Source of the DNA: Chloroflexota bacterium
GTDB taxonomy: Bacteria > Chloroflexota > Dehalococcoidia > Lucifugimonadales > SAR202-VII-2
NCBI GenBank assembly: GCA_003228115.1
Contig: QEVV01000011.1
Span: 1-64,000 of the forward strand
Reading direction: 5' to 3'
Length of the DNA stretch: 64,000 bases
Shown here: positions 2,421 to 63,488 of the stretch, piece by piece
Position numbering within the stretch: position 1 is the first letter of the stretch
Layout: each line of letters opens with the position of its first letter
Made by a program: the position numbers and the translations under genes
Notes under the pieces: generated by a model
The model's input: only the letters and a program-made list of their open reading frames with translations
Database searches by the model: none
Told to the model about the DNA's origin: nothing

Positions 2421-3809
2421 ATGGCTGATTCCGACTACGACGTTGTAATTATAGGCAGCGGGCCAGGTGGCTACGTTGCTGGCATTCGCGCCGGGCAGCT
2501 GGGCCTGAAGACCGCCGTTGTGGAACGCGATGAGGTAGGTGGCGTTTGCTTGAACTGGGGCTGCATTCCCAGCAAAGCACTCCTTCGCAATGCTGAAATC
2601 CTGTCCCTTTTCAAACGGGGCGACGAGTTCGGGTTCACCTTTGATAACCTTCAGGCCGACTTCGGCGTTGCCGTAGACAGAAGCCGGAAGGTCGTCCAGA
2701 AGCTTACCCAGGGGGTAGCCTTCCTCCTTAAGAAGAACAAGGTGGACCTCATTCAGGGATCGGGATCCCTCCGAGACGCCAACACGGTTGAGGTGGCGCC
2801 AGAAGGAAGGATCCTCAAAACCAAGAGCATCATCATCGCCACCGGAGCACGGGCCAGGAGTATTCCACCCTTGCCCATAGACGAGAAAACAGTGATCACC
2901 AGCCGACAGGCGCTTGAGCTACGGGAAGTGCCAAAGCGAGTTGTCATTGTGGGGGGCGGGGCCACAGGGGCAGAGTTCTCCTATATCTACAACTCCTATG
3001 GAGCGAAGGTCACCTTGGTGGAAATGTTGCCGCGGATACTACCCAAGGAAGATGAAGAGATCAGCGCCACCTTGGAGCGGGCCTTCTCCAAGCAGGGGAT
3101 CGAGGTCATGACTGGAGCACAGGTAAAGGAGACGCGCCGGGACAAGGACGGCCTGACCGTAGTCGTCGATGGCAAGGATGGGGTGGTAGACATCCCCTGC
3201 GACAAGGTCCTGTCGGCAATCGGAGTCGACTACAACACAGAGGGTCTTGGCTTAGACAAGGTCGGCATCAAGCTGGAAAAGGGCGCCATCGTCGTTGACG
3301 ACCATCTGGCAACGACCGCACAGGGCGTGTATGCAATCGGTGACGTGACGGGTAAAATGCTTTTGGCTCATGTGGCCATGGCCCAAGGGGTCGCAGTGGT
3401 CGAACGCATCGCAGGCATTGACGTACCCTCCCTCAACTACACGCTCATGCCCAGGGCCACGTATTGCGTACCCCAGGTTGCCAGCTTCGGCCTCACGGAA
3501 GCGGAAGCTCGCGAGCAGGGTTACGAAGTGAAGGTAGGAAAGTTCCCCCTTCAGGCCAGCGGCAAGGCTTTGGCCCTAGCAGAGACTGAAGGGATGGTGA
3601 AGGTGGTAGCCGACGCCAAGCTTGGTGAGATTCTTGGAGGCCATGCAATCGGCCACGAGGCAACCGAGTTGATGGGAGAGCTAGCCATCGCCAATCTGTT
3701 GGAAGGAACGACAAAAGAAGTAGGCTGGTTGGTGCACGCGCACCCCACCATGTCCGAGGCCGTCAAGGAAGCTGCATTGGCTGCAGACGGCGAAGCGATC
3801 CACATCTAA
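2421..3809 (+). CDS. lpdA: Dihydrolipoyl dehydrogenase (E3)
   Basis: The 462-residue flavoenzyme reoxidises dihydrolipoamide on the E2 subunit and passes electrons to NAD+. Visible features are the N-terminal FAD Rossmann motif GSGPGG (12-17), the redox disulfide Cys43/Cys48 in GGVCLNWGCIPSK, an internal NAD-binding GGGATGAEF, the FAD motif AIGDVTG, and the C-terminal HAHPTMSE (His441, Glu446). Length is typical of the family. A possible -10 box (TACAAT) lies near 2371. It is the first gene of a compact operon followed by E1alpha, E1beta and E2, so it is probably the dedicated E3. Confidence 0.96.
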   Translation: MADSDYDVVIIGSGPGGYVAGIRAGQLGLKTAVVERDEVGGVCLNWGCIPSKALLRNAEILSLFKRGDEFGFTFDNLQADFGVAVDRSRKVVQKLTQGVAFLLKKNKVDLIQGSGSLRDANTVEVAPEGRILKTKSIIIATGARARSIPPLPIDEKTVITSRQALELREVPKRVVIVGGGATGAEFSYIYNSYGAKVTLVEMLPRILPKEDEEISATLERAFSKQGIEVMTGAQVKETRRDKDGLTVVVDGKDGVVDIPCDKVLSAIGVDYNTEGLGLDKVGIKLEKGAIVVDDHLATTAQGVYAIGDVTGKMLLAHVAMAQGVAVVERIAGIDVPSLNYTLMPRATYCVPQVASFGLTEAEAREQGYEVKVGKFPLQASGKALALAETEGMVKVVADAKLGEILGGHAIGHEATELMGELAIANLLEGTTKEVGWLVHAHPTMSEAVKEAALAADGEAIHI

Positions 3810-5884: not shown

Positions 5885-7159
5885 GTGGCTACTGAAGTAG
5901 TAATGCCCCAGATGGGCTACGACATGCAGGAAGGCAAAGTCCTGCGGTGGCTCAAACAAGAAGGGGAACAAGTCGCCCGAAGCGAGATCATCGCCGAAAT
6001 CGAGACTGACAAAGCCGCCATCGAGATGCCGGCTTACGCGGAAGGCGTCCTGGGCAAGATATATATTCAGGAAGGAATGACGGTTCCTGTCGGCACGGTT
6101 ATAGCCGTCATAACCGCCCCCGGCGAGGAGATCCCCGACGCTCCACCCGCCGATGCCCCTGCGGCGACGCCGTCAGAAGTGCCAGCCCCGGCTCTGGAAA
6201 CTGCACCGGCTCCTCCTGTCGTTACCCCAGTGGCCGCAGCCGTCCCGGCCACGGGCCAGATTAAAGCATCCCCTGTCGCACGGCGGCTGGCCGATGAACT
6301 CGGGGTAAGCCTGAGCCAGATTACTGGAACCGGGCCCGGCGGCCGCATCACCAAAACCGACGTCCAGGGCTTTTCTGCAAGCACCCCTGCCCCGGCAACT
6401 CCGGCTCCCGCTGCTGAGAAGACTAAAGAAGAAGCGGCCGCCCCTCCCCGGCTCACCATCGATCAGGTGCCGGAAACGATCCAACTATCACCCATGCGGC
6501 GCGCCATCGCCCGCGTCACCAGCGCCTCCAACCGGGACGTGCCCCACTTTTACGTAATGGGCGAAATCGAAATGGACGGCGTGATGGAGCTGCGTTCCCA
6601 GGTCAACCGCGACCTCCAGGAACAGGAAGGTTTACGCCTCAGCGTCAACGACTTCATCATCAAGGCTTCCGCCAGGGCTCTGGCCAAATTCCCCAACTTG
6701 AACGCTTTCTTCGAGGGTGACTCCCTCAAGATGAACAAGACCATCAATGTTGGTGTTGCCATGGATCTGAAGGGCCAGGGGCTCATGATCCCAGCATTAA
6801 TGGACGTCGGCAGCATGAGCCTGGTGGAGATATCCAAGGCGGTACGTCACCTGGCGGAGCGAGCCCGGTCCGGCCACCTCACCCAAGAAGAGTACACCGC
6901 TGGAACGTTCACCGTAAGCAATCTCGGTATGTTCAACGTCGACAACTTTGTGGCCATCATCTTCCCGCCTCAGGCTGCGGTCTTGGCCACAGGATCGGTA
7001 AAGAAAAGGCCCGTTGTTCGCGACGACCAGATAGTGGTGGGACAGGTCATGAACTGCACCCTGTCGATAGACCACCGCATCTCCGACGGCGCAGAGGCCG
7101 CTCAGTTCATGGGCGAACTCAAACGGCTCCTCGAGTCTCCAGCCCTTCTGTTGATGTAA
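5885..7159 (+). CDS. pdhC: Dihydrolipoamide acyltransferase (E2)
   Basis: A 424-residue E2 core protein. It has an N-terminal lipoyl domain with the modified Lys43 in ETDKAAIE, an Ala/Pro-rich linker (about 80-130), a peripheral-subunit-binding domain (about 130-165, ASPVARRLADELGV) and the catalytic domain (about 205-424) ending with HRISDG (His397, Asp401). The start is GTG at 5885 with a GGAGG site 10 bases upstream. It is the last gene of the operon and is followed by a strong terminator. Its lipoyl domain would be a substrate of the LipA at the left edge. Confidence 0.95.
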   Translation: MATEVVMPQMGYDMQEGKVLRWLKQEGEQVARSEIIAEIETDKAAIEMPAYAEGVLGKIYIQEGMTVPVGTVIAVITAPGEEIPDAPPADAPAATPSEVPAPALETAPAPPVVTPVAAAVPATGQIKASPVARRLADELGVSLSQITGTGPGGRITKTDVQGFSASTPAPATPAPAAEKTKEEAAAPPRLTIDQVPETIQLSPMRRAIARVTSASNRDVPHFYVMGEIEMDGVMELRSQVNRDLQEQEGLRLSVNDFIIKASARALAKFPNLNAFFEGDSLKMNKTINVGVAMDLKGQGLMIPALMDVGSMSLVEISKAVRHLAERARSGHLTQEEYTAGTFTVSNLGMFNVDNFVAIIFPPQAAVLATGSVKKRPVVRDDQIVVGQVMNCTLSIDHRISDGAEAAQFMGELKRLLESPALLLM

Positions 7160-7182
7160 GGCTCGAAACGTAGCTCTTGATA

Positions 7183-7215
7183 AAAGAGGCCCCGTTAATC
7201 CCGGGGCCTCTTTTT
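7183..7215 (+). terminator. Rho-independent terminator of the dehydrogenase operon
   Basis: A GC-rich stem (GAGGCCCC paired with GGGGCCTC, extended by A/T pairs) is followed directly by TTTTTCTT. It lies about 25 bases after the E2 stop codon. Confidence 0.9.
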
Positions 7216-7271
7216 CTTGTTCGCTCCTGAAACGGCCCACACTCAGGCGAGGCATGTGCGCGAAGGCGCAC

Positions 7272-8084
7272 CTATCTTTCTGAGAGAGTTGGTGTCGGAG
7301 TGAACGCAGGTGCGCCATCGTCGTGGGTTGGGATCGGCTCCCATTCCTCCGGCATTTGGACTGTGATTGGCTCGTTGAAGTCGAATAGATAATAGTCCTC
7401 TGTCCTTAGGTCAACCTCCGGCTCGCCGTTGCCTCCTTCCTCATCCAATGGGAAATACCCGGCCAAATCAACCGTTGTTTTGATCCGCATGAGGATCATG
7501 TCCTCTTGTCTTATATAGAGGTCGAACGTAGCAAGCGGCGCGTTGTAGCCTTCCGGCACACCAAGCAAGCGAGTCGCTGTAACGTGGTAAACAGCCTTAC
7601 CTTTCACCACTGCGTCTGGTTGCCACCGAGCGTCTTTCAAGTCAGCCAGCACGCCGAACCGAGGAACGAAAAGGGGCTTGCCCTGAGAACCGGTGGTCTC
7701 TTTCCAGACAATGTCCCGCTCCGCCACGCGGCGCAAAACCAGACCGGCCAGCGAGGCCCAGTCAGCCTGCACTGGTGTGCCATCCTCCATCCACCCATTC
7801 TCCCGCACATAGTAGGCGCCATCAGCCCACTCGCCATCTTGCTGCCGCCGCCAGGGTCGTTCAACCTCACCTTCGACCACCAGCGCGTTGACTTCGCCAT
7901 TGAAGCGATATGACTGAATCCCCTGCATCACTTGCCACGTCTGGGCCACCAGCTCGTCGGCAGTATTCGGACGGCCCTCCCCGGGGCCTGCTGCAGCATC
8001 AGCACCGCAGGCTGCCAGGAGCAAAGCCAGGAATGCCACATATCCAGCTATGGAATGACAGATGCCGCTCAATCTACTTATCAA
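7272..8084 (-). CDS. Secreted lipoprotein, LppX/LolA-like fold possible
   Basis: The 270-residue protein starts with a lipoprotein signal peptide whose lipobox is LLAAC. The mature part has an alternating hydrophobic pattern with SYRFNGEVNALVVEGEVERPW, YYVRENGWMEDG and a late LYIRQEDMILMRIKTTVDLAGYF segment. This resembles LppX/LprG- or outer-membrane-lipoprotein-sorting-like proteins that bind lipids. That assignment rests on pattern, not on a unique motif. It is convergent with the E2 operon and stands alone. Confidence 0.75.
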   Translation of the reverse strand: MISRLSGICHSIAGYVAFLALLLAACGADAAAGPGEGRPNTADELVAQTWQVMQGIQSYRFNGEVNALVVEGEVERPWRRQQDGEWADGAYYVRENGWMEDGTPVQADWASLAGLVLRRVAERDIVWKETTGSQGKPLFVPRFGVLADLKDARWQPDAVVKGKAVYHVTATRLLGVPEGYNAPLATFDLYIRQEDMILMRIKTTVDLAGYFPLDEEGGNGEPEVDLRTEDYYLFDFNEPITVQMPEEWEPIPTHDDGAPAFTPTPTLSER

Positions 8085-8213
8085 CGCAATTGCTCATACC
8101 GACCATTGTAGGCCAATAGTGGCCGCGGTCATTACCGCTAACGCGCTTCCACCCTCATGCCCTGCGTGGTAAAGTGACTCCGCTTTCTTCACCGACCTAT
8201 CGAAGGAGACGAC

Positions 8214-10466
8214 ATGACCACATTGAAGGTTGTTGGCCACCACACCCCACGGGTTGATGGGCCAGCCAAGGTAACCGGAAAGACCCAGTACTCGGCCGAT
8301 ATTTCGGTGCCGGGCATCCTGTGGGGCGCCATACTACGAAGCCCCCTGGCCCACGCCAAAATCATCAAGATCGACACGTCCAAGGCTGAGAAGCTGCCTG
8401 GCGTCAAGGCTGTGATCACCAGCGAGAACGTCGGCCGCCTCCTCATTGGACGCTACCTCAGGGACATGCCGGTGCTCGCCTTCGACAAGGTCCGGTTCAT
8501 CGGCGAACGTGTGGCGGCTGTGGCCGCCACCGATAGGGACACCGCTGAAGAAGCCCTGTCCTTAATTGATGTGGAGTACGAAGAACTGCCTGGCGTCTAC
8601 GATATCGCCGGGGCGTTGACTCCCGGCGCTCCCAACGTCCATGACGACCCCAGAGGCTACCCCAACTCCTACACGGACGCAGAGCAGCCTGACCTTCCCA
8701 ATGTCTGCGCTTTCGGTCATTGGCACCATGGCGACTTCAACGCTTCCATGAAGGAGGCTGACGAGGTCATTGAGCATTCGTTCCGTGTCCCCGCCGAGCA
8801 CCACGGCTACATTGAGCCCCACGCCGTTGTCGTGTCCTATGACCAGACAACCGGGCGAGCCGAAGTATGGCCATCCAACAAGAGCCCCTACGCGCTGCGA
8901 GGCCAGTTGGCCACAGCTTTGGAAATAGCTCCCGACACGATAGACGTACACTCCACCAGCATTGGCGGCGACTTTGGGGGCAAGGGCACGCCGATGGACT
9001 CGCCGGTGGCCTTCTTGCTGTCCAAGGCCGCAGGAGCCCCCGTCAAGCTCGTTATGACCTACACCGAAGAACTGATGGCGGCCAACACCCGCCACGGTGG
9101 TGTCATAAACGTCACCCTTGGAGTCAAGAAAGACGGACGAATCTGCGCGTTGAAGGCTGAGGGCCTGTTCAACGGCGGAGCCTACGGAGCCCACAAGCCC
9201 CTCCCGAACGTCAACCTGCACGGCGCGGATCAGGTAGGAAGCTGCTACCGGGTTCCCGCTATGGACACCACAAGCACCATCGCCTACACCAATATGGTCT
9301 CAGCGGGCCACATGCGGGCCCCAGGCGCCCCTCAGTTCACCTTCGCGGTGGAACGGAGCCTAGACATAGCGGCCCAAAGGCTGGGCATGGACCCGGGGGA
9401 GTTCCGCCTCATCAACGTCCTCGACAACAATGACCACCCTCACTCCGCCGCCGAGGGGTCGACTGTCCGAGCAAAGGAAACTCTTCAGAAGGCCCTGGAA
9501 GCCGGCGGATGGGGTTCTTCAAAGGAGAGCCGCTACATCGGGCGCGGCATCGCCATGTACGAACGCGGGGCTATCGGCGGCAACTCCAGCATGAGGATCG
9601 GCCTGGCATCCAGCGGCCAAATAACAATCCACGTCCCCATCCCGGACCCAGGGCAAGGCGGATACACCGTCGTCCAGCAAATAGCTGCCGAGGTTCTTGG
9701 AGTTCCCGCTAGCCAGATCACCATCGTAACGGCGCCTCCGGGTATGTTGCCCTTCGACATGGGTGTCGGCGGAAGTAGGACGACGTACGCCGTCGGCAAG
9801 ACAGCTATGGACTCAGCGGCAGCGTTGCAAGCCCGCCTCAAGCAAGTGGCCACCACACGCCTGGAGGTTCCCGAGGACCAGATGTCCTGGGAGGGAGCCA
9901 CGCTGGTAGCGGGCACCCAAAGGATCACGCTTGCCGAACTGGGTTCCTGGGCCGAAGAGATTGAAGGAGTGCCGCTGGAAGTCGACATTGTTGTAGAACT
10001 TCCCGTCTTCCCCGACAGCGCGATGTCTTTCACCGCTCAGGTGGCCGAGGTTGAGGTGGACCCAGAGACGGGCAAGATCAACCTGCGCCGCATGGTTACT
10101 GCCCACGACATTGGCGTCATCGTTAACCCCGTAGGTCACCAAGGCCAGATAGAGGGGGCATTCGTGATGGGCATGGGGTACGGACTCATGGCTGAAATGC
10201 CCTCAGAAGAAGGTCGCATCACAACGTTGCACTTGGGCGATTATAAGCTGCCCAGTCAGGGGGACATTCCTGAGTTGGTCACCGTATTGCTTCGTGGCGA
10301 GGAAGGCCCCGTGCCATTTGGTGGGCAGTCCATCGCTGAAGCGTCCAACGTTCCGGCGGCGGCGGCCATAGCCAACGCGGTCAGCGATGCCATCGGCATC
10401 CAGCTTGACCAACTACCCGTTTCGGCGGAGCGCGTTTACCAGGCGTTGCAGGGAAACGGCAAGTAG
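8214..10466 (+). CDS. Xanthine dehydrogenase-family molybdopterin subunit (orphan)
   Basis: A 750-residue large subunit of a molybdenum hydroxylase. It has the N-terminal alpha/beta hammerhead (TGKTQYSADISVPGILWGAILRSPLAHAKI) and the molybdopterin domains (GGDFGGKG, GHMRAPGAPQ, GVGGSRTTYAVG). ATG at 8214 is preceded by GAAGGAG. No FAD or 2Fe-2S subunit gene adjoins it, which is unusual because these enzymes normally work as three subunits or fused forms. It may share the CoxS/CoxM pair at 29.3-30.6 kb or use partners elsewhere. The oxidised substrate is unknown. Confidence 0.9.
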   Translation: MTTLKVVGHHTPRVDGPAKVTGKTQYSADISVPGILWGAILRSPLAHAKIIKIDTSKAEKLPGVKAVITSENVGRLLIGRYLRDMPVLAFDKVRFIGERVAAVAATDRDTAEEALSLIDVEYEELPGVYDIAGALTPGAPNVHDDPRGYPNSYTDAEQPDLPNVCAFGHWHHGDFNASMKEADEVIEHSFRVPAEHHGYIEPHAVVVSYDQTTGRAEVWPSNKSPYALRGQLATALEIAPDTIDVHSTSIGGDFGGKGTPMDSPVAFLLSKAAGAPVKLVMTYTEELMAANTRHGGVINVTLGVKKDGRICALKAEGLFNGGAYGAHKPLPNVNLHGADQVGSCYRVPAMDTTSTIAYTNMVSAGHMRAPGAPQFTFAVERSLDIAAQRLGMDPGEFRLINVLDNNDHPHSAAEGSTVRAKETLQKALEAGGWGSSKESRYIGRGIAMYERGAIGGNSSMRIGLASSGQITIHVPIPDPGQGGYTVVQQIAAEVLGVPASQITIVTAPPGMLPFDMGVGGSRTTYAVGKTAMDSAAALQARLKQVATTRLEVPEDQMSWEGATLVAGTQRITLAELGSWAEEIEGVPLEVDIVVELPVFPDSAMSFTAQVAEVEVDPETGKINLRRMVTAHDIGVIVNPVGHQGQIEGAFVMGMGYGLMAEMPSEEGRITTLHLGDYKLPSQGDIPELVTVLLRGEEGPVPFGGQSIAEASNVPAAAAIANAVSDAIGIQLDQLPVSAERVYQALQGNGK

Positions 10467-10484
10467 GAACAAACAGAGGGATAT

Positions 10485-10522
10485 CGTCAGGCGTTCAGTA
10501 GGCGCCTACTGAACGCCTGACG
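10485..10522 (+). terminator. Loopless 19-bp inverted repeat after the molybdopterin subunit gene
   Basis: Two perfect 19-base arms meet without a spacer and are followed by CGCTTTCTTG. It lies about 20 bases after the stop codon and probably works as a terminator or a bidirectional boundary against the convergent rRNA methyltransferase gene. Confidence 0.7.
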
Positions 10523-10607
10523 CGCTTTCTTGCCGAAGCGCTCCATTGTGCGCATGGGGTCCATGTGTGGGTACAAGCCACTATCAAGCGACCGACTTGC
10601 AGGCTAC

Positions 10608-31560: not shown

Positions 31561-31936
31561 ATGTCTGGCACCTTGGCCATCGCGAACCGCTTCAACGACG
31601 CCATGAACAATCACGACGTGGACGCCTTGACGTCACAGATGGCTGAAATTGCACTCGAGAGCACCTCTCCCGCGGAACCGCTGCACGTCGCACATACAGC
31701 GTGAGGGAACTGTGGAAGGAGCGCTTCGCCTCGGGGCCACGTTCTCAGCCTATTACGTGATCGAAAGCGGCGACAGATGCGTAGTCCAGTGGCGCTACGA
31801 ATGGGTCGATGAGCGGGGAAGACCGGGCACATCCAAGGAGTCGACGTATTTAAGCGAGGGACGGGAAGGTGACGAAGAGGCTTTCCTACGTGAAAGGCTA
31901 CCGAAAAGGTGGTACTCCCGGCCGAATTTGAACCTG
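31561..31936 (+). pseudogene. SnoaL/NTF2-like protein, frameshifted
   Basis: ATG at 31561 opens a SnoaL-like start (LAIANRFNDAMNNHDVDALTSQM). The frame is then lost near 31700. Family-like sequence resumes in a second frame (CVVQWRYEWVDERGRPG) and in a third (RDGKVTKRLSYVKGYRK). At least two frameshifts are needed. The last reading ends at a TGA that lies inside the tRNA-Arg-like fragment, so the 3' end has been rebuilt by the island junction. Probably dead. Confidence 0.7.
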
Positions 31937-31956
31937 CGACACTCGGTTCCGAAGAC
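31910..31956 (-). repeat. tRNA-Arg 3'-part fragment, candidate distal attachment site
   Basis: Forty of 47 bases match the 3' part (CCA end, acceptor, T-arm, anticodon loop) of the intact tRNA-Arg at 63413-63488, in the same orientation. Similarity stops at the anticodon arm. The last 15 bases (CTCGGTTCCGAAGAC) are identical. A truncated same-strand tRNA 3' copy at distance is what tRNA-targeting integrases leave at the far end of an island. Confidence 0.78.
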
Positions 31957-39728: not shown

Positions 39729-40209
39729 ATGAAGTTCCTTTTGCCAGTTTGCCTTCTGCTCGCAGCATTGCTGCTCGTCGTTTCCTGTTCAGGCTCCGTA
39801 GGAGAGGATGGACCACGTGGTCAACAGGGAGTGGCGGGAGAGCAAGGTGACCAGGGACACCAAGGCCCCGCTGGTGCTACTGGCGCCGAGGGTGCCCAGG
39901 GGGAGCAGGGTAAGACCGGAGCCACCGGTGCACAGGGCTCGATGGGGTTGCGGCGGTTCCCGGGAACCACGGGTTCTGCGGGAGCGGATGGAACAGATGG
40001 AGCCACGGGCTCTGCGGTGTATCGTGCGATACCCGCTGACAACACAACAACCACCCTGGACAGCGAAGGGAGTGTGGGCCGGGACATATCCGATAACCAT
40101 TGGGGCTGATGGACTTGGCCTCATCAGCTACTGGGACCTTACCAACGCTGACCTAAAGGTAGCCCACTGCGAAAACGCCTTCTGCTCACCGCATTTTAGG
40201 CGGAGATAG
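39729..40209 (+). pseudogene. Truncated, frameshifted copy of the collagen-propeller lipoprotein
   Basis: The first 30 residues ([20 protein letters not shown] and on) and the last 20 ([17 protein letters not shown]) are the same as in the intact gene at 58095. In between, the collagen-like stalk is shorter and only one propeller unit remains. A one-base insertion near 40085 puts the C-terminal part in another frame. About 60 bases upstream of the ATG are also conserved between the two loci. This is a deletion derivative or a seed copy of the larger gene. It ends just before a tRNA-like 3' end. Confidence 0.85.
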
Positions 40210-40235: not shown

Positions 40236-40281
40236 CCAATCTGCAACGAGGGAGTTCGTGGTTCGATTCCATTCCCCCCCA
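40236..40281 (+). repeat. tRNA 3'-half fragment A (Cys-like, GCA loop), degenerate
   Basis: An anticodon-loop-like CTGCAAC, a T-arm (GTGG TTCGATT CCAT) and a seven-C acceptor strand plus A73 are present. No matching 5' acceptor strand exists upstream. The stem pairing is poor, so the amino-acid assignment is tentative. It is followed by a hairpin and a weak match to the motif found after fragments B and C. Confidence 0.5.
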
Positions 40282-40297
40282 ACTGCTGGTTATTAGC

Positions 40298-40343
40298 AAC
40301 AACGAAGCCCCCGGTTCCGTCTCCGATGGCTTCGTTGTTTTTA
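40298..40343 (+). terminator. Rho-independent terminator
   Basis: AACAACGAAGCC pairs with GGCTTCGTTGTT around an 18-base loop and is followed by TTTTA. It ends transcription from the truncated lipoprotein / fragment A side. Confidence 0.85.
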
Positions 40344-40500
40344 GGCCTACTTATAGACGACACTGATTAGCTCCATCGCCAGGCGATGGACAAAGTGAAG
40401 AGACATCAAGGGTCGGCTTGACATCCCGTTTCAAATAGGCGTTCCATAGTTTTTGGGACCATATCTCAATAGTCAAATTTCCCCATAGGGCAACAGAGCA

Positions 40501-41718
40501 TTGAATTCAGGCGAAACCCACGCGGGATCATACCGCTGGCTATTAATGGCATTGTGGATGTGTACGCACTCCACGGGATGGGTTGTCGTGCTGAGCATTG
40601 GAATCCTGTTACCCTCTATAGCCGCAGAGTTTCATCTATCTTATGGTATGCAAGGTTTATTAGCGTCCGGGCCTCTTTGGGCCAATACAATTCTCTACCT
40701 ACCGCTTAGTATATGGCTTGTTCGATACTCCCCTAGGCTACTCACAACTATTACCATTGTCCTAGGGACGCTGTTCGTGTTACTTCAGGCATCCAGCTCC
40801 CTTTTTATTGTCCTACTGATCTCTCGATTCGCCCTTGGCATCACCTTAGCTGCTAGAGAACCAGCTAGGATGCTTCTCATGCAACAGTGGTTTCACTCCC
40901 GAGAGTTCTTGTGGGTGAACTCCATTACCGTATGTGTCCTTTCCTTCGCATTTTTCGGCGCTACTCTGGCGACACCATATGTCTTAACTTTCTTCGGCGA
41001 TGATTGGAGATCAACACTCTATTTCTTTGGGGGACTGACGGGCGGACTGGCCATCCTATGGGTCATATTAGGCCGGGAGAGAAAAACCCACCAATATCTA
41101 TCATATATTGCCCAGTCGAGCACAGTCAATTGGCAAAACGTTCTTCGGCATAAAGAACTCTGGCTGGCAGCATTGGGACTCTTGGGTACAAATATATCAG
41201 CCTCTACCTTTATTGCCTTTTATCCAACGTTCATGTTGGAGAGGTACGATTTTCCATTGAAATATAGCGCTTTCATTCTTTCGGCCAATTGGCTGGTTTG
41301 TGGCCTAGCTGGTTTGATTGTTGCCAGATTAGCCACCAATTGGACCAGCCGTTCAAGAATCCTGTACACATGTGGTTTAATCCTTCCTTCCAGTTACTTG
41401 CTCCTCATATTTACGGATTCCTTGCCATTACTCTTTGTGGCCTTAATCGCCAATGGGATCGGATGGTGCTTTTTCCCAATATTGTTAACTATAACCCTTC
41501 ATCTGCCTGGTATTCATGTCAAGGAAGTACCCGTCGCACACGCTTTCTTGTTCGCATCCGTCTCTTTTGGGTTGGCAATGGGACCATTACTGGCAGGCTT
41601 CGCATTGGACACTTTGGGCAATCCTCTAGTGGTATTAGGCATCATGAGCCTAGCTTCATTGAGTGTCATTGGTTCAGGGATTTCAGCGAGAATATTAACG
41701 GAAACTGCCATTTCCTAG
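40501..41718 (+). CDS. MFS transporter in an AT-richer cargo module
   Basis: A 405-residue major facilitator with 12 hydrophobic segments (for example GWVVVLSIGILLPSIAAEF, SRFALGITLAAREPARMLL). The TTG start at 40501 is uncertain; an internal ATG lies at 40549. Codon use and base composition are visibly AT-richer than the flanking operons at 1-31 kb, suggesting transfer. It is the only gene between tRNA fragments A and B, so it may be the cargo of one module. The substrate is unknown. Confidence 0.85.
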   Translation: MNSGETHAGSYRWLLMALWMCTHSTGWVVVLSIGILLPSIAAEFHLSYGMQGLLASGPLWANTILYLPLSIWLVRYSPRLLTTITIVLGTLFVLLQASSSLFIVLLISRFALGITLAAREPARMLLMQQWFHSREFLWVNSITVCVLSFAFFGATLATPYVLTFFGDDWRSTLYFFGGLTGGLAILWVILGRERKTHQYLSYIAQSSTVNWQNVLRHKELWLAALGLLGTNISASTFIAFYPTFMLERYDFPLKYSAFILSANWLVCGLAGLIVARLATNWTSRSRILYTCGLILPSSYLLLIFTDSLPLLFVALIANGIGWCFFPILLTITLHLPGIHVKEVPVAHAFLFASVSFGLAMGPLLAGFALDTLGNPLVVLGIMSLASLSVIGSGISARILTETAIS

Positions 41719-42035
41719 ATTCAGCCACTCTAACCGTGACACATCCTCAACAACAATTTCCACAGCAACGCCGAAGGGCACCACTGCACACGAACGGGTG
41801 GTTAAGGTCTCCTTCCAGTCATCTGAAAATACGGGCGAGCAAAGCGTCTCCCTCTGCCCCCTCCTTTCCAAGCAGGGCTTCAGGGGCCCAAGTTTTCTAG
41901 ACCTCCTAGCTGTCCAAACACCTCAAACGCCAGATCTTCTTTTTATCCTTCACAATTTTTTAGGGCTGGGCACTAACACAGTCAATGTAGAGCATAACGG
42001 CTTGGGGTCCCATGGGGAGGGGGGGCTAGAGGGAC

Positions 42036-42085
42036 TCGGCTTTGCAACCAGGGGGTCAGAGGTTCGAGTCCCCTCAGCCTCATCA
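42036..42085 (+). repeat. tRNA-Ala(UGC)-like 3'-half fragment B
   Basis: The anticodon loop TTTGCAA (UGC), the variable region GGGTC, the T-arm GG TTCGAGT CCCCT and an acceptor strand CAGCCTC-A followed by TCA are in order, as in bacterial tRNA-Ala. The 5' half (acceptor strand GAGGCTG and D-arm) is absent. This looks like an attachment-site remnant rather than a working tRNA. Confidence 0.75.
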
Positions 42086-42165
42086 CGTTTACCCGGGACT
42101 TTGTCCCCTGAGACAAGATCGGGGAACTTAGTCTTCCACCCTAGTCCCATAAATAGTCTTGCAAT
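42086..42165 (+). repeat. Conserved post-tRNA block, copy B
   Basis: Directly after fragment B the order is a CTTTGTCCCC.. hairpin-like segment, ACAAGATCGGGG, and then GTCCCATAAATAGTCTTGCA (42144-42163). The same order follows fragment C at 44237-44350. It is non-coding and precedes the stop of licD on the other strand. Confidence 0.65.
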
Positions 42166-42169
42166 TTGC

Positions 42170-43105
42170 TCACATTTCTGAGATTTCCAAGGCCATAGCC
42201 CGCACTCCGCCCTTATAATGTTGCTCTGGGGTAATTATTGGCCCTGGGCGATAAATGTAATTAATACTAGGTGAAAGCCACTCTTCATAGAGAATCTCTT
42301 GGTGTTTTTCATAACGGATGACCATTGCGTAGCAAGCTGTATGAGGGACATAGAATTTTGCTACCCCATATCTATCGGTCTTCGAACGGTCAAGACCGGC
42401 GACTATTACCTCCGCTCCTCTAACCAACCGTCCGTCCCGATCGAATACTTTCACACTACTGTTGGCACGAGGAAACTTACCCACACTCAAAGCCCGCTGA
42501 AACTTGTTCCAGCGACTAAGGTTGTCGCCGTCCCCAATCTTCATCACAACGTCCGCCTCGAACCCTGGCCCTTTCGGCGTTAGCCATTCAGATCCATATT
42601 TTAATCTCAGATACTCTTCTGGTGGGCTTGGCACGAGGAACTTTTGGCCAATAAATTCAATTTTTTTCGGCTGGGTGAATAAGTGCAATGGAAGTTTTAC
42701 CCCAGGAAACTCAATAGCACCTCCATCAACAATACGGTGGCAGGTCCAGTCAGTTCGTACACCATCCTTTATGAACGCAACACTCATGTACTGGGGATTA
42801 CTTCTGATGCGAGGGTAGAACCCATTTTCCTTGAATACATCGCCCATTCGATAAATCGTTTCTTCGTCTAGGCCATGCATCCCGATTATTGAGGCCGTGT
42901 CAATCTCGTCATCCCATGGAATGAATCTATTTTCCCTTATGCAACCAAGACAGGTACCTGAACCAAGCCAAAACACGACCTTCTGGTCATCAAAAATGCG
43001 TTTGACTTCTTTGAGCCTGTTGGCCGCGATCGCCGGATCCAAGGGGGTTGGAGATATAATGGTCTTTTGGTAGGCTGCCTCGTCCGCTTCGTTATTCGTT
43101 ATCAA
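42170..43105 (-). CDS. licD: LicD-family phosphotransferase
   Basis: A 311-residue protein with the LicD signature at residues 46-70 (FWLGSGTCLGCIRENRFIPW followed by DDEID). The paired acidic residues are typical of this nucleotidyltransferase fold. Family members transfer phosphocholine or other phospho-alcohols from CDP-activated donors onto glycans or teichoic acids. Residues from about 220 form a separate C-terminal beta-rich region. The TTG start at 43105 is likely. It lies 23 bases after the nucleotidyltransferase gene in a two-gene, AT-richer operon. Confidence 0.85.
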   Translation of the reverse strand: MITNNEADEAAYQKTIISPTPLDPAIAANRLKEVKRIFDDQKVVFWLGSGTCLGCIRENRFIPWDDEIDTASIIGMHGLDEETIYRMGDVFKENGFYPRIRSNPQYMSVAFIKDGVRTDWTCHRIVDGGAIEFPGVKLPLHLFTQPKKIEFIGQKFLVPSPPEEYLRLKYGSEWLTPKGPGFEADVVMKIGDGDNLSRWNKFQRALSVGKFPRANSSVKVFDRDGRLVRGAEVIVAGLDRSKTDRYGVAKFYVPHTACYAMVIRYEKHQEILYEEWLSPSINYIYRPGPIITPEQHYKGGVRAMALEISEM

Positions 43106-43128
43106 TTCTTATTCCCCATCCCACTCTG

Positions 43129-43857
43129 TTAATTATGGTGACCACTACCTGTCTGTAGACGCTCCAGGTCTTCTGGATTGTCTATATCGTGCCAAAATTC
43201 TCCGGATATGTCACAGCTTTTGAGAAGTCCGCCCTGATCTATAAAATAGGCCAACATTTCACCGAGTTCATATCGTCCCGAGTCATCGCAATTAACCCAT
43301 TGATTGATTACTTCATAAATTTCGGATGTGAACCTGAAAACCCCGGAGTCGACACCGTTCCATATTTTTATGTGCTTTCCAATTGAGCAAATTGTTTCTT
43401 TATCCTTCACTAGCACCCGAGTGGCCTCCTGTGCATGATACGAAGTTATATTAAAGTCAACACCTAACACATTGCCCTGGTAATCTCCGTCGAACTTCAT
43501 CACATTGGTTATAAGGCTAGATGAGGCCATATGATCACCCATAGCAAGTATGAAATCTTGACCGTCTGCGAAAGATTGAGCCATTTGAACGGAAAGAGCG
43601 TTTCCAAATCTATAGTTCTTATTAAATATAGTCTCAATTTTGAGTCCATACTGAGATCCATCGCCTACCCAGTCGTTAATTCGATCGGACATAAACCCTG
43701 TAACTAACCCAACATTAACAATGCCTGCCTGAGAGAATGCCCAGAGCGTATGATCGATAATGGGGAAATCTCCTACCGTTAGAAGAAGCTTATGTTCTTT
43801 CTCGGTATACGACCCAAATCGCGAACCAACACCCGCTGATAAAATCACTCCCTTCAC
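43129..43857 (-). CDS. NTP transferase (LicC / sugar- or polyol-phosphate nucleotidyltransferase type)
   Basis: A 242-residue Rossmann-like nucleotidyltransferase. It starts with KGVILSAGVGSRFG, has the conserved Lys of KLLLTVGDFPIIDH and the metal-binding Asp in LAMGDHM. Relatives make CDP-choline (LicC), CDP-inositol or NDP-sugars. Its pairing with LicD suggests it makes the CDP-activated donor for that transferase. It is the upstream gene of the pair, and its promoter side faces tRNA fragment C. Confidence 0.85.
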   Translation of the reverse strand: MKGVILSAGVGSRFGSYTEKEHKLLLTVGDFPIIDHTLWAFSQAGIVNVGLVTGFMSDRINDWVGDGSQYGLKIETIFNKNYRFGNALSVQMAQSFADGQDFILAMGDHMASSSLITNVMKFDGDYQGNVLGVDFNITSYHAQEATRVLVKDKETICSIGKHIKIWNGVDSGVFRFTSEIYEVINQWVNCDDSGRYELGEMLAYFIDQGGLLKSCDISGEFWHDIDNPEDLERLQTGSGHHN

Positions 43858-44180
43858 TCTTAACCACCTCCATGTAATTTGATTTCCTAGACAGCATTTC
43901 CCTGCTCACGCTGACGTTCCTTCGCAAAATACTATCAATTGCGAGATATACAACTCCTAGACCAATCCACGCAGACACAGCAGGCACTGAACTGAGGAGA
44001 GACCTCTTTAACCCTGACCCCGAACGAACAAGGGTTCTTCTACTATCGGATTGCAACATATGCTCCTTAGCTTTGCCATTAGTTGCAATATGGGGCAAAA
44101 CGCCCTGTAGCGACCGTAGCACCACCTGAGTATTCGGGGTTAACTATATGGGTTTACGTGGGCTTACGTGTACTGACAGA

Positions 44181-44236
44181 GGAGCGTCTAGTTTACACGC
44201 AGGAGGTCATTGGTTCGAGTCCATTACCGCCCACCA
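44181..44236 (+). repeat. tRNA-Val(UAC)-like 3' fragment C with CCA
   Basis: GGAGCGTCT, the anticodon loop TTTACAC (UAC), CGCAGGAGGTC, the T-arm TGG TTCGAGT CCA and ACCGCCC-A-CCA are in order. The 3' half is well preserved, while the 5' half is replaced by a sequence containing two TTACGTG repeats (44154-44170). An encoded CCA end is present. It is read as an attR-type remnant at tRNA-Val, not as a functional tRNA. Confidence 0.78.
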
Positions 44237-44350
44237 TCTTTTTAGCTACGGATTTGCCCCCTCGACAAGCTCGGGGGGCTTTCCATATCCCCTCTGACTA
44301 ATCATCAGAGGGCCATTCTTTTGGCCTTGTCCTACAAATAGTCCTACAGT
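44237..44350 (+). repeat. Conserved post-tRNA block, copy C
   Basis: It contains GATTTGCCCCCT..ACAAGCTCGGGG, an 8-bp hairpin (CCCTCTGA/TCAGAGGG, not in copy B), and then two direct GTCCTAC heptamers separated by AAATA (44329-44347). The order matches copy B. The paired heptamers look like protein-binding sites. It has no coding potential. Confidence 0.65.
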
Positions 44351-44395
44351 TTGAAAGAATTTCTGGTTCGGGGTGACCCTTTGGCTAGGGCGACG

Positions 44396-60701: not shown

Positions 60702-61205
60702 CCTACGTCCCATACGATAACTACCCTGGACCGCGAAGGGGATGTGGGCTAGTACACATCGATGACCATTGGGAATGATGGGCTGGGCCTCATCAGCTAC
60801 TACGACTACACCAACCAGGACCTGAAGGTAGCTCACTGCGGGAATGTTGCCTGCACGAAAGACCCGTTCACGCCCACCGTTCAGATCGAATTAGGTTTGC
60901 TTCCCCCGTCGGTCCTCTTGGACGACTACCTGAGGCCGAGCACAGACACCCTCGCCTATGCACACCGCGACGTATGGGAATCCGAAGCCACCGTGACGAA
61001 GTTCTTCATTGCCACAGAGACAGGAAGCTACGATATCGGCTATTCGCTAGCGGGAGTCGCAGTTGCTGAGTTGGATATCGTGGTCACTCGGCACGTACCC
61101 GTCGTGCCCCTACCAGGCGCAGGTGATACCAACGGTGACAACAACGTAGACGTCCTCGACCTGGTCACCGTGGGGAGCAACTTGGGTAATTACTACGGGC
61201 CCTAA
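60702..61205 (+). pseudogene. Propeller unit plus dockerin-like tail with in-frame TAG
   Basis: The frame starts ITTLDREGDVG, then a TAG at 60750-60752 where the intact gene has a Trp codon, and continues [20 protein letters not shown].. with DLKVAHCGNVAC. After that it is unlike the other copies: a Thr/Val-rich domain and a C-terminal dockerin-like calcium motif, GDTNGDNNVDVLDLVTVGSN. No start codon or signal peptide precedes it. A shorter gene could start at ATG 60762, but without a secretion signal this is unlikely. Confidence 0.7.
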
Positions 61206-63120: not shown

Positions 63121-63267
63121 AAGGTGGTCCAGGAGCGCCTGGGGCATAGCAGCATCGCTATCACCCTGGACACCTACAGCCATGTGGTTCCAGGCCTCCA
63201 GGAGGCCGCAGCCAGGGCCATCGACGAGGCTCTCACTAGGAAGGAGGTCCCGGTGACAAGCCAGTAG
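63121..63267 (+). pseudogene. Tyrosine recombinase (integrase) C-terminal fragment
   Basis: The frame reads KVVQERLGHSSIAITLDTYS then HV and about 25 more residues to TAG. This is the family's hallmark C-terminus with the conserved GH and the nucleophilic Tyr in DTYSHV. Upstream of about 63118 the sequence is no longer integrase-like, so only the last 48 codons remain. It points toward the tRNA-Arg 146 bases away, the normal position for an island integrase. Confidence 0.85.
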
Positions 63268-63412: not shown

Positions 63413-63488
63413 TGGTACGCCCGGAGGGATTTGAACCCCCGACCCTCGGTTCCGAAGACCGATGCTCTATCCCCTGAGCTACGGGCGC
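63413..63488 (-). tRNA. tRNA-Arg (anticodon UCG), CCA encoded
   Basis: All four arms fold. The acceptor stem is GCGCCCG with CGGGCGT (one G-U pair), the D-arm has TAGCTCAGGGGATAGAGCA, the anticodon loop is CTTCGGA, giving UCG, and the T-arm is GGGGG TTCAAAT CCCTC. CCA is encoded at 63413-63415. The gene reads leftward, so its 3' end faces the integrase fragment and the island. Confidence 0.95.

Follow-up and report, generated by a model that had tools for sequence, protein, structure and literature searches.

Orphan tRNA 3′ halves and common arm-type repeats delimit candidate integrase-less cargo modules within a putative tRNA-Arg(UCG) island of a SAR202 genome

The 64-kb stretch of a SAR202 genome analysed in this work (hereafter, the window) contains three tRNA 3′ halves in tandem, denoted A, B and C, which flank two small modules of cargo genes (Table 1). 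These modules are likely to be decayed, integrase-less, CIME-like segments that were stacked by tandem accretion within a larger, also decayed island at tRNA-Arg(UCG). According to this scenario, tRNA-targeting elements with tyrosine integrases would pile up in tandem, with A, B and C being leftover attachment-site cores: each element would carry a terminator and a tandem 12-bp arm site in addition to a tRNA 3′ half spanning the anticodon loop through CCA, and integration would leave one tRNA half per junction. The MFS and LicD/nucleotidyltransferase modules would have ends without an integrase and might owe their movement, in cis or in trans, to related elements, as in the CIME model, and the differing tRNA identities could stem from related integrases with common arm sites that are paired to different tRNA cores.

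Table 1. Features of the candidate modules and of the putative enclosing island (positions in the window)
Feature	Position	Strand	Description
tRNA-Arg(UCG) 3′ half ending in CCA	31910..31954	-	27.1 bits, E = 3.6e-5; candidate right attachment site
A	40240..40281	+	probable degenerate tRNA 3′ half, isoacceptor not assignable
MFS transporter	40501..41718	+	PF07690, E = 1.4e-29; cargo between A and B
B	42041..42085	+	tRNA-Ala(UGC) 3′ half from the anticodon loop
Arm-type tandem repeat after B (TAGTCCCATAAATAGTCTTGCAATTTG)	42142..42168	+	second best motif match of the window
LicD-family protein	42170..43105	-	PF04991, E = 2.8e-12; cargo between B and C
Nucleotidyltransferase	43129..43857	-	PF00483, E = 3.2e-16; cargo between B and C
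C	44192..44236	+	tRNA-Val 3′ half with CCA, from the anticodon loop
Arm-type tandem repeat after C (TTGTCCTACAAATAGTCCTACAGTTTG)	44327..44353	+	best motif match of the window, 19/20 specified bases
Tyrosine integrase C-terminal remnant (KVVQERLGHSSIAITLDTYSHVVPG...)	63121..63264	+	beside the tRNA-Arg(UCG) 3′ end
tRNA-Arg(UCG), intact	63413..63488	-	Rfam 67.6 bits, ARAGORN; candidate left attachment site

Scores for partial tRNAs come from a covariance model that was built on the 3′ halves of 37 host tRNAs (45 nt, anticodon loop to CCA, T-stem paired). In the window, C scored 44.6 bits (E = 5e-10), B 34.8 bits (E = 2.6e-7) and A 19.8 bits (E = 0.004, or 0.17 genome-wide), all above the best background match of 11.4 bits; under the same model, the intact tRNA-Arg(UCG) reached 47.1 bits. 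The original prediction, made from the sequence alone, described three orphan halves, Cys-like, Ala-like and Val-like with CCA, respectively. Two of these stand as described. B is an orphan half of tRNA-Ala(UGC), identical to the host gene at 40 of the 45 positions vs 31 for the next best tRNA (blastn E = 1.6e-13), and C is an orphan half of tRNA-Val, with 40 of 45 positions identical to the host tRNA-Val(CAC), its own loop being UAC. The weak match at A makes it a probable tRNA 3′ half, and its assignment to Cys has to be abandoned given that the best gapped scores were obtained with Val (16) and Ala (15), compared to a background 99th percentile of 12. As expected from the original prediction, no 5′ halves were found, and neither ARAGORN nor Rfam at the gathering cut-off recognized a full tRNA at A, B or C; between 32.1 and 63.4 kb, these programs likewise detected no intact tRNA, the sole real tRNA of the window by both ARAGORN and the Rfam gathering score being tRNA-Arg(UCG). 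The genome also has an intact tRNA-Ala(UGC) gene and three tRNA-Val genes, located on other contigs of the fragmented assembly (estimated contamination 4.6%). At the level of identity given above, the halves are not exact copies of host tRNA 3′ halves, which the original prediction had suggested looking for.

The two modules are small (about 1.8 and 2.1 kb), and the only Pfam domains between A and C are those of the MFS transporter, LicD and the nucleotidyltransferase, distributed between the modules as initially reported. No integrase or transfer genes were found between A and C, and the genome-wide integrase search yielded no match inside the window, in agreement with the earlier statement that no single module contains an integrase; the scanned ORFs of the window did not include a transposase. 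The AT-richness of these genes was borne out as well. The GC content of the A–C region, 46.9%, is the minimum among all 3.9-kb stretches of the window, vs 58.6% left of the island, and GC3 of all three A–C genes falls between 0.40 (nucleotidyltransferase) and 0.49 (MFS transporter), vs about 0.7 for the genes left of the island (0.68–0.73 in five genes). Because GC climbs to 58% directly beyond C, where the adjacent dehydrogenase gene has a GC3 of 0.69, C marks a sharp right border of foreign composition.

Behind both B and C, at 56 and 90 bp past the CCA, respectively, there is a 27-bp repeat made of two 12-bp, TAGTCCTACAAA-like units. The repeats after B and after C are identical at 21 of the 27 positions, a level that was reached by 13 of 19,816 random 150-bp pairs and by none of the 16,899 pairs drawn from the AT-rich stretch. 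The best candidate after A, with 12 of the 20 bases and rank 54 in the window, is at the background level, and no right-hand arms above background were detected upstream of A, B or C. CIMEs are bounded by attL and attR; here, tRNA halves bound both A–B and B–C, left arms are present at B and C, and right arms are at background. Thus, no module with both ends is demonstrated because there is no above-background arm pair upstream of A, B and C. Judging from their position and recurrence, the TAGTCCTACA repeats probably bind integrases, that is, the repeats would be integrase arm sites, and the halves would be attachment cores.

This interpretation can be calibrated against other elements of the same genome. 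On contig C5, tRNA-Arg(UCU) is followed by GATGCCAATATTGATGCCAA and then by an integrase at the contig end, and, at the beginning of C4, a similar arm pair precedes an orphan Arg(UCU) half, resulting in matching GATGCCAA pairs at the tRNA and at the orphan half. On C3, TTTGACCACCATTTTGACCACCATTTG follows tRNA-Ser(UGA), and the orphan Ser 3′ half on C13 has an identical pair in front of it; tRNA-Trp has TTGGCACCAATTTGGCACCAATTG beside its integrase. Given the pairs, halves and integrases at the Arg(UCU), Ser(UGA) and Trp loci, a tandem 12-bp arm pair together with a tRNA half marks the ends of integrated elements in this genome. Altogether, orphan halves were identified at C4:290, C4:1449, C2:633139, C13:2110 and C13:4582, in addition to the four on the contig of the window. 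The interval from C4:334 to C4:1449 contains one methyltransferase gene, flanked by two Arg(UCU) halves, and no integrase. The arms after B and C sit where the other elements of the genome carry theirs, which supports tRNA-targeted, site-specific integration behind A–C, as originally proposed, and we infer that the modules were mobile. The more specific claim of serial insertion at different tRNA genes is not supported because there is no cognate intact tRNA nearby (tRNA-Ala and tRNA-Val are encoded on other contigs) and right-hand arms were not found. Serial insertion in some form and the transfer of modules that were capped beforehand, both raised in the original prediction, are candidate origins of the mixed identities.

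The A–C segment appears to be nested in a larger structure. The tRNA-Arg(UCG) gene reads leftward, and a 3′ half in the same orientation, matching it at 38 of the 45 positions (29 for the next best tRNA), is located at 31.9 kb; A, B and C are on the opposite strand. The integrase remnant next to the intact tRNA is 53% identical over 36 amino acids to the integrase at tRNA-Trp of the same genome (pairwise E = 1e-11); it is short, and its match to Pfam PF00589 (E = 0.008) is below the cut-off. The intact tRNA-Arg(UCG), the remnant beside it and the Arg(UCG) half at 31.9 kb suggest that A–C lie inside a single 31.5-kb tRNA-anchored island (31910–63488), of which only the integrase remnant survives. 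In tRNA islands of the Islander type, an intact tRNA is accompanied by a cognate 3′ fragment, with the crossover at the anticodon (PMC4383910). The 31.9–63.4 kb segment resembles these in that the intact tRNA and the downstream cognate fragment have the right orientation and order and the crossover would fall at the anticodon, but differs in that the integrase gene is reduced to its C-terminal part, so that the integrase filter of Islander would probably reject it. The Arg(UCG) fragment on the minus strand is a fourth half that was absent from the original prediction.

Other SAR202 genomes are informative with regard to the mixing of arms and cores. In the complete genome G108, both ends of an element at tRNA-Ala(UGC) (748.7–760.7 kb) carry GTTACAGCGA arms, and both ends of an element at tRNA-Gly(UCC) (880.2–892.4 kb) carry GACACC arms. 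The Ala element has its own integrase, and the Gly element also includes one; these Ala and Gly elements, with their different arm types, have separate integrase genes that are 51% identical. GACACC arms are also found after the Ala half at 760.7 kb, after the intact tRNA-Gly(CCC), and before another Ala half, at 704 kb, together with a fragment of an integrase that shares 70% identity with that of the Gly element. Because GACACC arms and the 70% identical integrase C-termini occur at both, sequence comparison indicates that a single arm/integrase type goes together with both Ala and Gly cores in G108. Furthermore, G108 contains a 16.7-kb module between identical Ala(UGC) halves (704 and 687 kb). 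This module is on the other strand relative to tRNA-Ala, which is 44 kb away; it follows tRNA-Asn at a distance of 3.4 kb, and the break carries an IS3-like copy. The missing integrase N-terminus was not found beside another IS copy in G108, and IS-mediated inversion is not proven. Insertion of one core type in a half of another type was not seen in G108, where each traceable arm/core combination is either at its own cognate tRNA or displaced from it. Both core exchange and relocation have precedent as routes to a mixed neighbourhood.

The B/C arm type, with one mismatch, is present in one further genome of the order, SAR202 OSU_TB57, in which it is located behind an intact tRNA-Gly(GCC); the 25-bp core pattern of the C repeat differs by one mismatch from the sequence after this tRNA. 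OSU_TB57 also offers a further case of an integrase-less module: one gene for a restriction-like protein (McrB_N and NOV_C domains) is enclosed by two arm pairs, and another 115 bp on, the contig ends. The same arm type is found behind different tRNAs in sister genomes. When the arm pattern was searched for in the 393 class genomes, allowing at most 2 mismatches, the other matches mostly looked like repeats or chance.

Vertical inheritance of the arrangement was examined using LicD. Homologues are present in 67 of the 247 genomes of the order, the closest (63–65% identical) coming from another genus (g2). In the 16 LicD loci of the order that were scanned, no tRNA half was found within 1.5 kb, and hence the arrangement of a half and a gene, whose conservation in relatives would have pointed to vertical synteny, was not seen conserved. 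Scanning genome contigs for nucleotidyltransferase relatives, and viral contigs for LicD relatives, gave no matches.

Several alternatives to tandem accretion merit consideration. The least plausible of these, to which we give almost no credence, is that the halves function as split or trans-spliced tRNA genes: they do begin at the anticodon loop, but no 5′ halves were found, the genome encodes intact tRNA-Ala(UGC) and three tRNA-Val, and both B and C contain T-stem mismatches. It is also very improbable that the halves are chance T-arm-like sequences. The window contains 7 occurrences of the bare T-loop pattern with one mismatch, vs 4.9 expected, and a chance origin is possible for A, at just 19.8 bits; for B and C, it is refuted by the E values, the clear isoacceptor identity, the position of the CCA end and the arm repeat of each. 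A single promiscuous integrase that would insert small cassettes at any tRNA-like core, the halves serving as a general cassette attachment site, could account for the same arm repeats at B and C despite the different tRNA identities, and for GACACC arms with both Ala and Gly cores in G108. We nevertheless consider this unlikely: the G108 elements with different arm types have separate, 51% identical integrases, traceable elements stay with their cognate tRNA, and arrays elsewhere are homotypic (Arg-UCU, Ala). The most far-reaching possibility, an integron-like cassette system of SAR202, with tRNA 3′ halves and a conserved arm repeat as attachment sites, single-gene integrase-less cassettes captured in trans, one recombinase family using several cores, and mixed arrays growing away from tRNA genes, is a speculation with a small chance of being correct.

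The remaining alternative, that the modules acquired their caps at cognate tRNAs elsewhere, in this or in another genome, and were subsequently assembled by chromosomal rearrangement or by transfer of larger pieces, so that the mixed identities would result from relocation and not from integration at mixed cores, deserves to be taken seriously even if we do not favour it. It has a parallel in the displaced Ala(UGC)-bounded module of G108, with the IS3-like copy at its break, and in Thermococcus, where a tRNA fragment was parted from its tRNA by inversion (PMC9897764), and it fits with the location of the intact Ala and Val genes on other contigs. However, bringing three same-strand halves together at 2-kb spacing requires several moves to one spot and in one orientation, a transposase was not found in the scanned window ORFs, and relocation alone leaves the arm type common to B and C unexplained. 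Tandem accretion is, in turn, weakened by the fact that only B and C share arms, A being weak and without arm repeats. That the mixture of identities arose by heterotypic accretion rather than by later relocation is a tentative preference that falls somewhat short of an even chance.

Stacked, RNA-gene-bounded islands are known in other systems. Dehalococcoides belongs to the same class as SAR202. The Dehalococcoides ssrA-specific islands are arranged in tandem and bounded by repeated 3′ ends of the RNA gene, and 15 of these that lack the integration module have been interpreted as cis-mobilizable elements that move via accretion (McMurdie et al. 2011, PMC3146451); these islands have a single target (tmRNA), 20-bp repeats and a serine recombinase, in contrast to the several tRNA identities and tyrosine-integrase-type arm repeats of A–C. 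CIMEs are attachment-site-bounded segments that have lost the integration and transfer genes and are stacked by accretion (PMC5704250). The A–C modules are similar in having candidate attachment-site ends and no integrase or transfer genes, whereas CIME tandems use one common attachment core, and the cores of A–C are mixed, their ends being candidates, with right-hand arms at background. In the additive flexible islands of Methylophilaceae, which can be as small as a single gene, the last 20 nt of the tRNA gene are repeated before the island (PMC10872708); all these repeats come from one tRNA (Lys), unlike the Ala, Val and unassigned halves here, with Arg outside. Tycheposons of Prochlorococcus, as outlined in PMC10872708 after Hackl et al. 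2023, also consist of tRNA-bounded cargo linked to tyrosine recombinases, and a relation to these had been left open in the original prediction. Measured against the features given in that outline, namely an intact tRNA at the module end, a tyrosine recombinase in the element and a size of 4–200 kb, the modules have neither an intact terminal tRNA nor a recombinase and span only about 2 kb; the A–C modules are not tycheposons. Overall, stacks of RNA-gene-bounded islands, some of them integrase-less, and single-gene islands at tRNA-Lys are already known (PMC3146451, PMC5704250, PMC10872708); the mixed tRNA identities with common arms, and one arm/integrase type paired with different cores, are new.

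If the same arm-binding integrases indeed pair with different cores, tRNA specificity would be a replaceable part of the element, which would explain both the occurrence of one element family at many tRNA genes and the presence of cargo far from an intact tRNA. The combination of a 3′-half model with the tandem arm repeat provides a practical search for integrase-less cargo, which island finders that require an integrase would be expected to drop. SAR202 is an abundant, mostly uncultured marine lineage in which, to our knowledge, gene gain has been little studied, and in a literature search, we found no paper dedicated to integrases, tRNA and genomic islands in SAR202.

Arms of this kind are also found in other bacteria. 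Among viral contigs, the arm-pattern matches are mostly low-complexity coding repeats (PSPT-type) rather than attachment sites, and only a few are near an integrase end. In Idiomarinaceae, AGTCCCACAGTTAGTCCCACA arms follow an intact tRNA-Arg(CCG) in two species and orphan Arg(CCG) halves in three; no integrase was recognized in the ORFs examined near these arms, and the nearby cargo includes AbiEii. In Alphaproteobacteria, the B/C arm type is located behind tRNA-Ser, and in an alphaproteobacterial MAG, a second arm copy lies 7 kb away, where an integrase gene that encodes an arm-DNA-binding domain begins.

PICMI-like gene sets appear, judging by gene content, to occupy tRNA sites in SAR202 bacteria, at tRNA-Ala(UGC) and tRNA-Gly(UCC) in the complete genome G108 and on contig C12 of the genome that contains the window. 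Such a set comprises an integrase and its overlapping neighbour gene, together with a DUF3987 or primase-type gene and, in the G108 elements, an HTH_17 (AlpA-type) protein; the C12 set is judged on the genes other than the HTH one. PICMIs have been described in Vibrionaceae, where they occupy fis. Also on C12, an intact tRNA-Thr has an integrase and an arm pair (tandem 12-bp repeats, putative integrase arm sites) on the upstream side, before its 5' end, whereas the other elements carry them downstream of the tRNA 3' end.

A minimal integrase-less module is present in the same genome, on contig C4, where a single methyltransferase gene lies between two tRNA-Arg(UCU) 3' halves. In OSU_TB57, another SAR202 genome, an intact tRNA-Gly is followed by an arm pair, a sole restriction-like gene (McrB_N/NOV_C), a second arm pair and the contig end. 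In Idiomarinaceae (L116, L121, L122, L123, L132), arms follow tRNA-Arg(CCG) or orphan halves of it. The cargo there is AbiEii, UvrD-helicase or weakly NACHT-like, and none of the ORFs examined near the arms was recognised as an integrase.

A repeat protein (23-residue sequence) recurs close to element ends; a 14-residue C-terminus is common to the C13 copy and the copy cut off before the degenerate tRNA half A.

Coordinates of modules, gene sets and repeat protein copies
Feature	Sequence	Position
PICMI-like set, tRNA-Ala(UGC)	G108	748.7-760.7 kb
PICMI-like set, tRNA-Gly(UCC)	G108	880.2-892.4 kb
PICMI-like set	C12	10532-14147
tRNA-Thr with upstream integrase, arm pair	C12	around 10384-10530
Methyltransferase module	C4	334-1449
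tRNA-Gly, arm pairs and McrB_N/NOV_C gene	OSU_TB57	6777-8145
Repeat protein	Window	39808-40209
Repeat protein	Window	60762-61205
Repeat protein	C13 (L108)	1-681
Repeat protein	C13 (L108)	2665-3591

The source organism may use selenocysteine, because ARAGORN predicts a tRNA-Sec gene on contig C1 near 493.6 kb.
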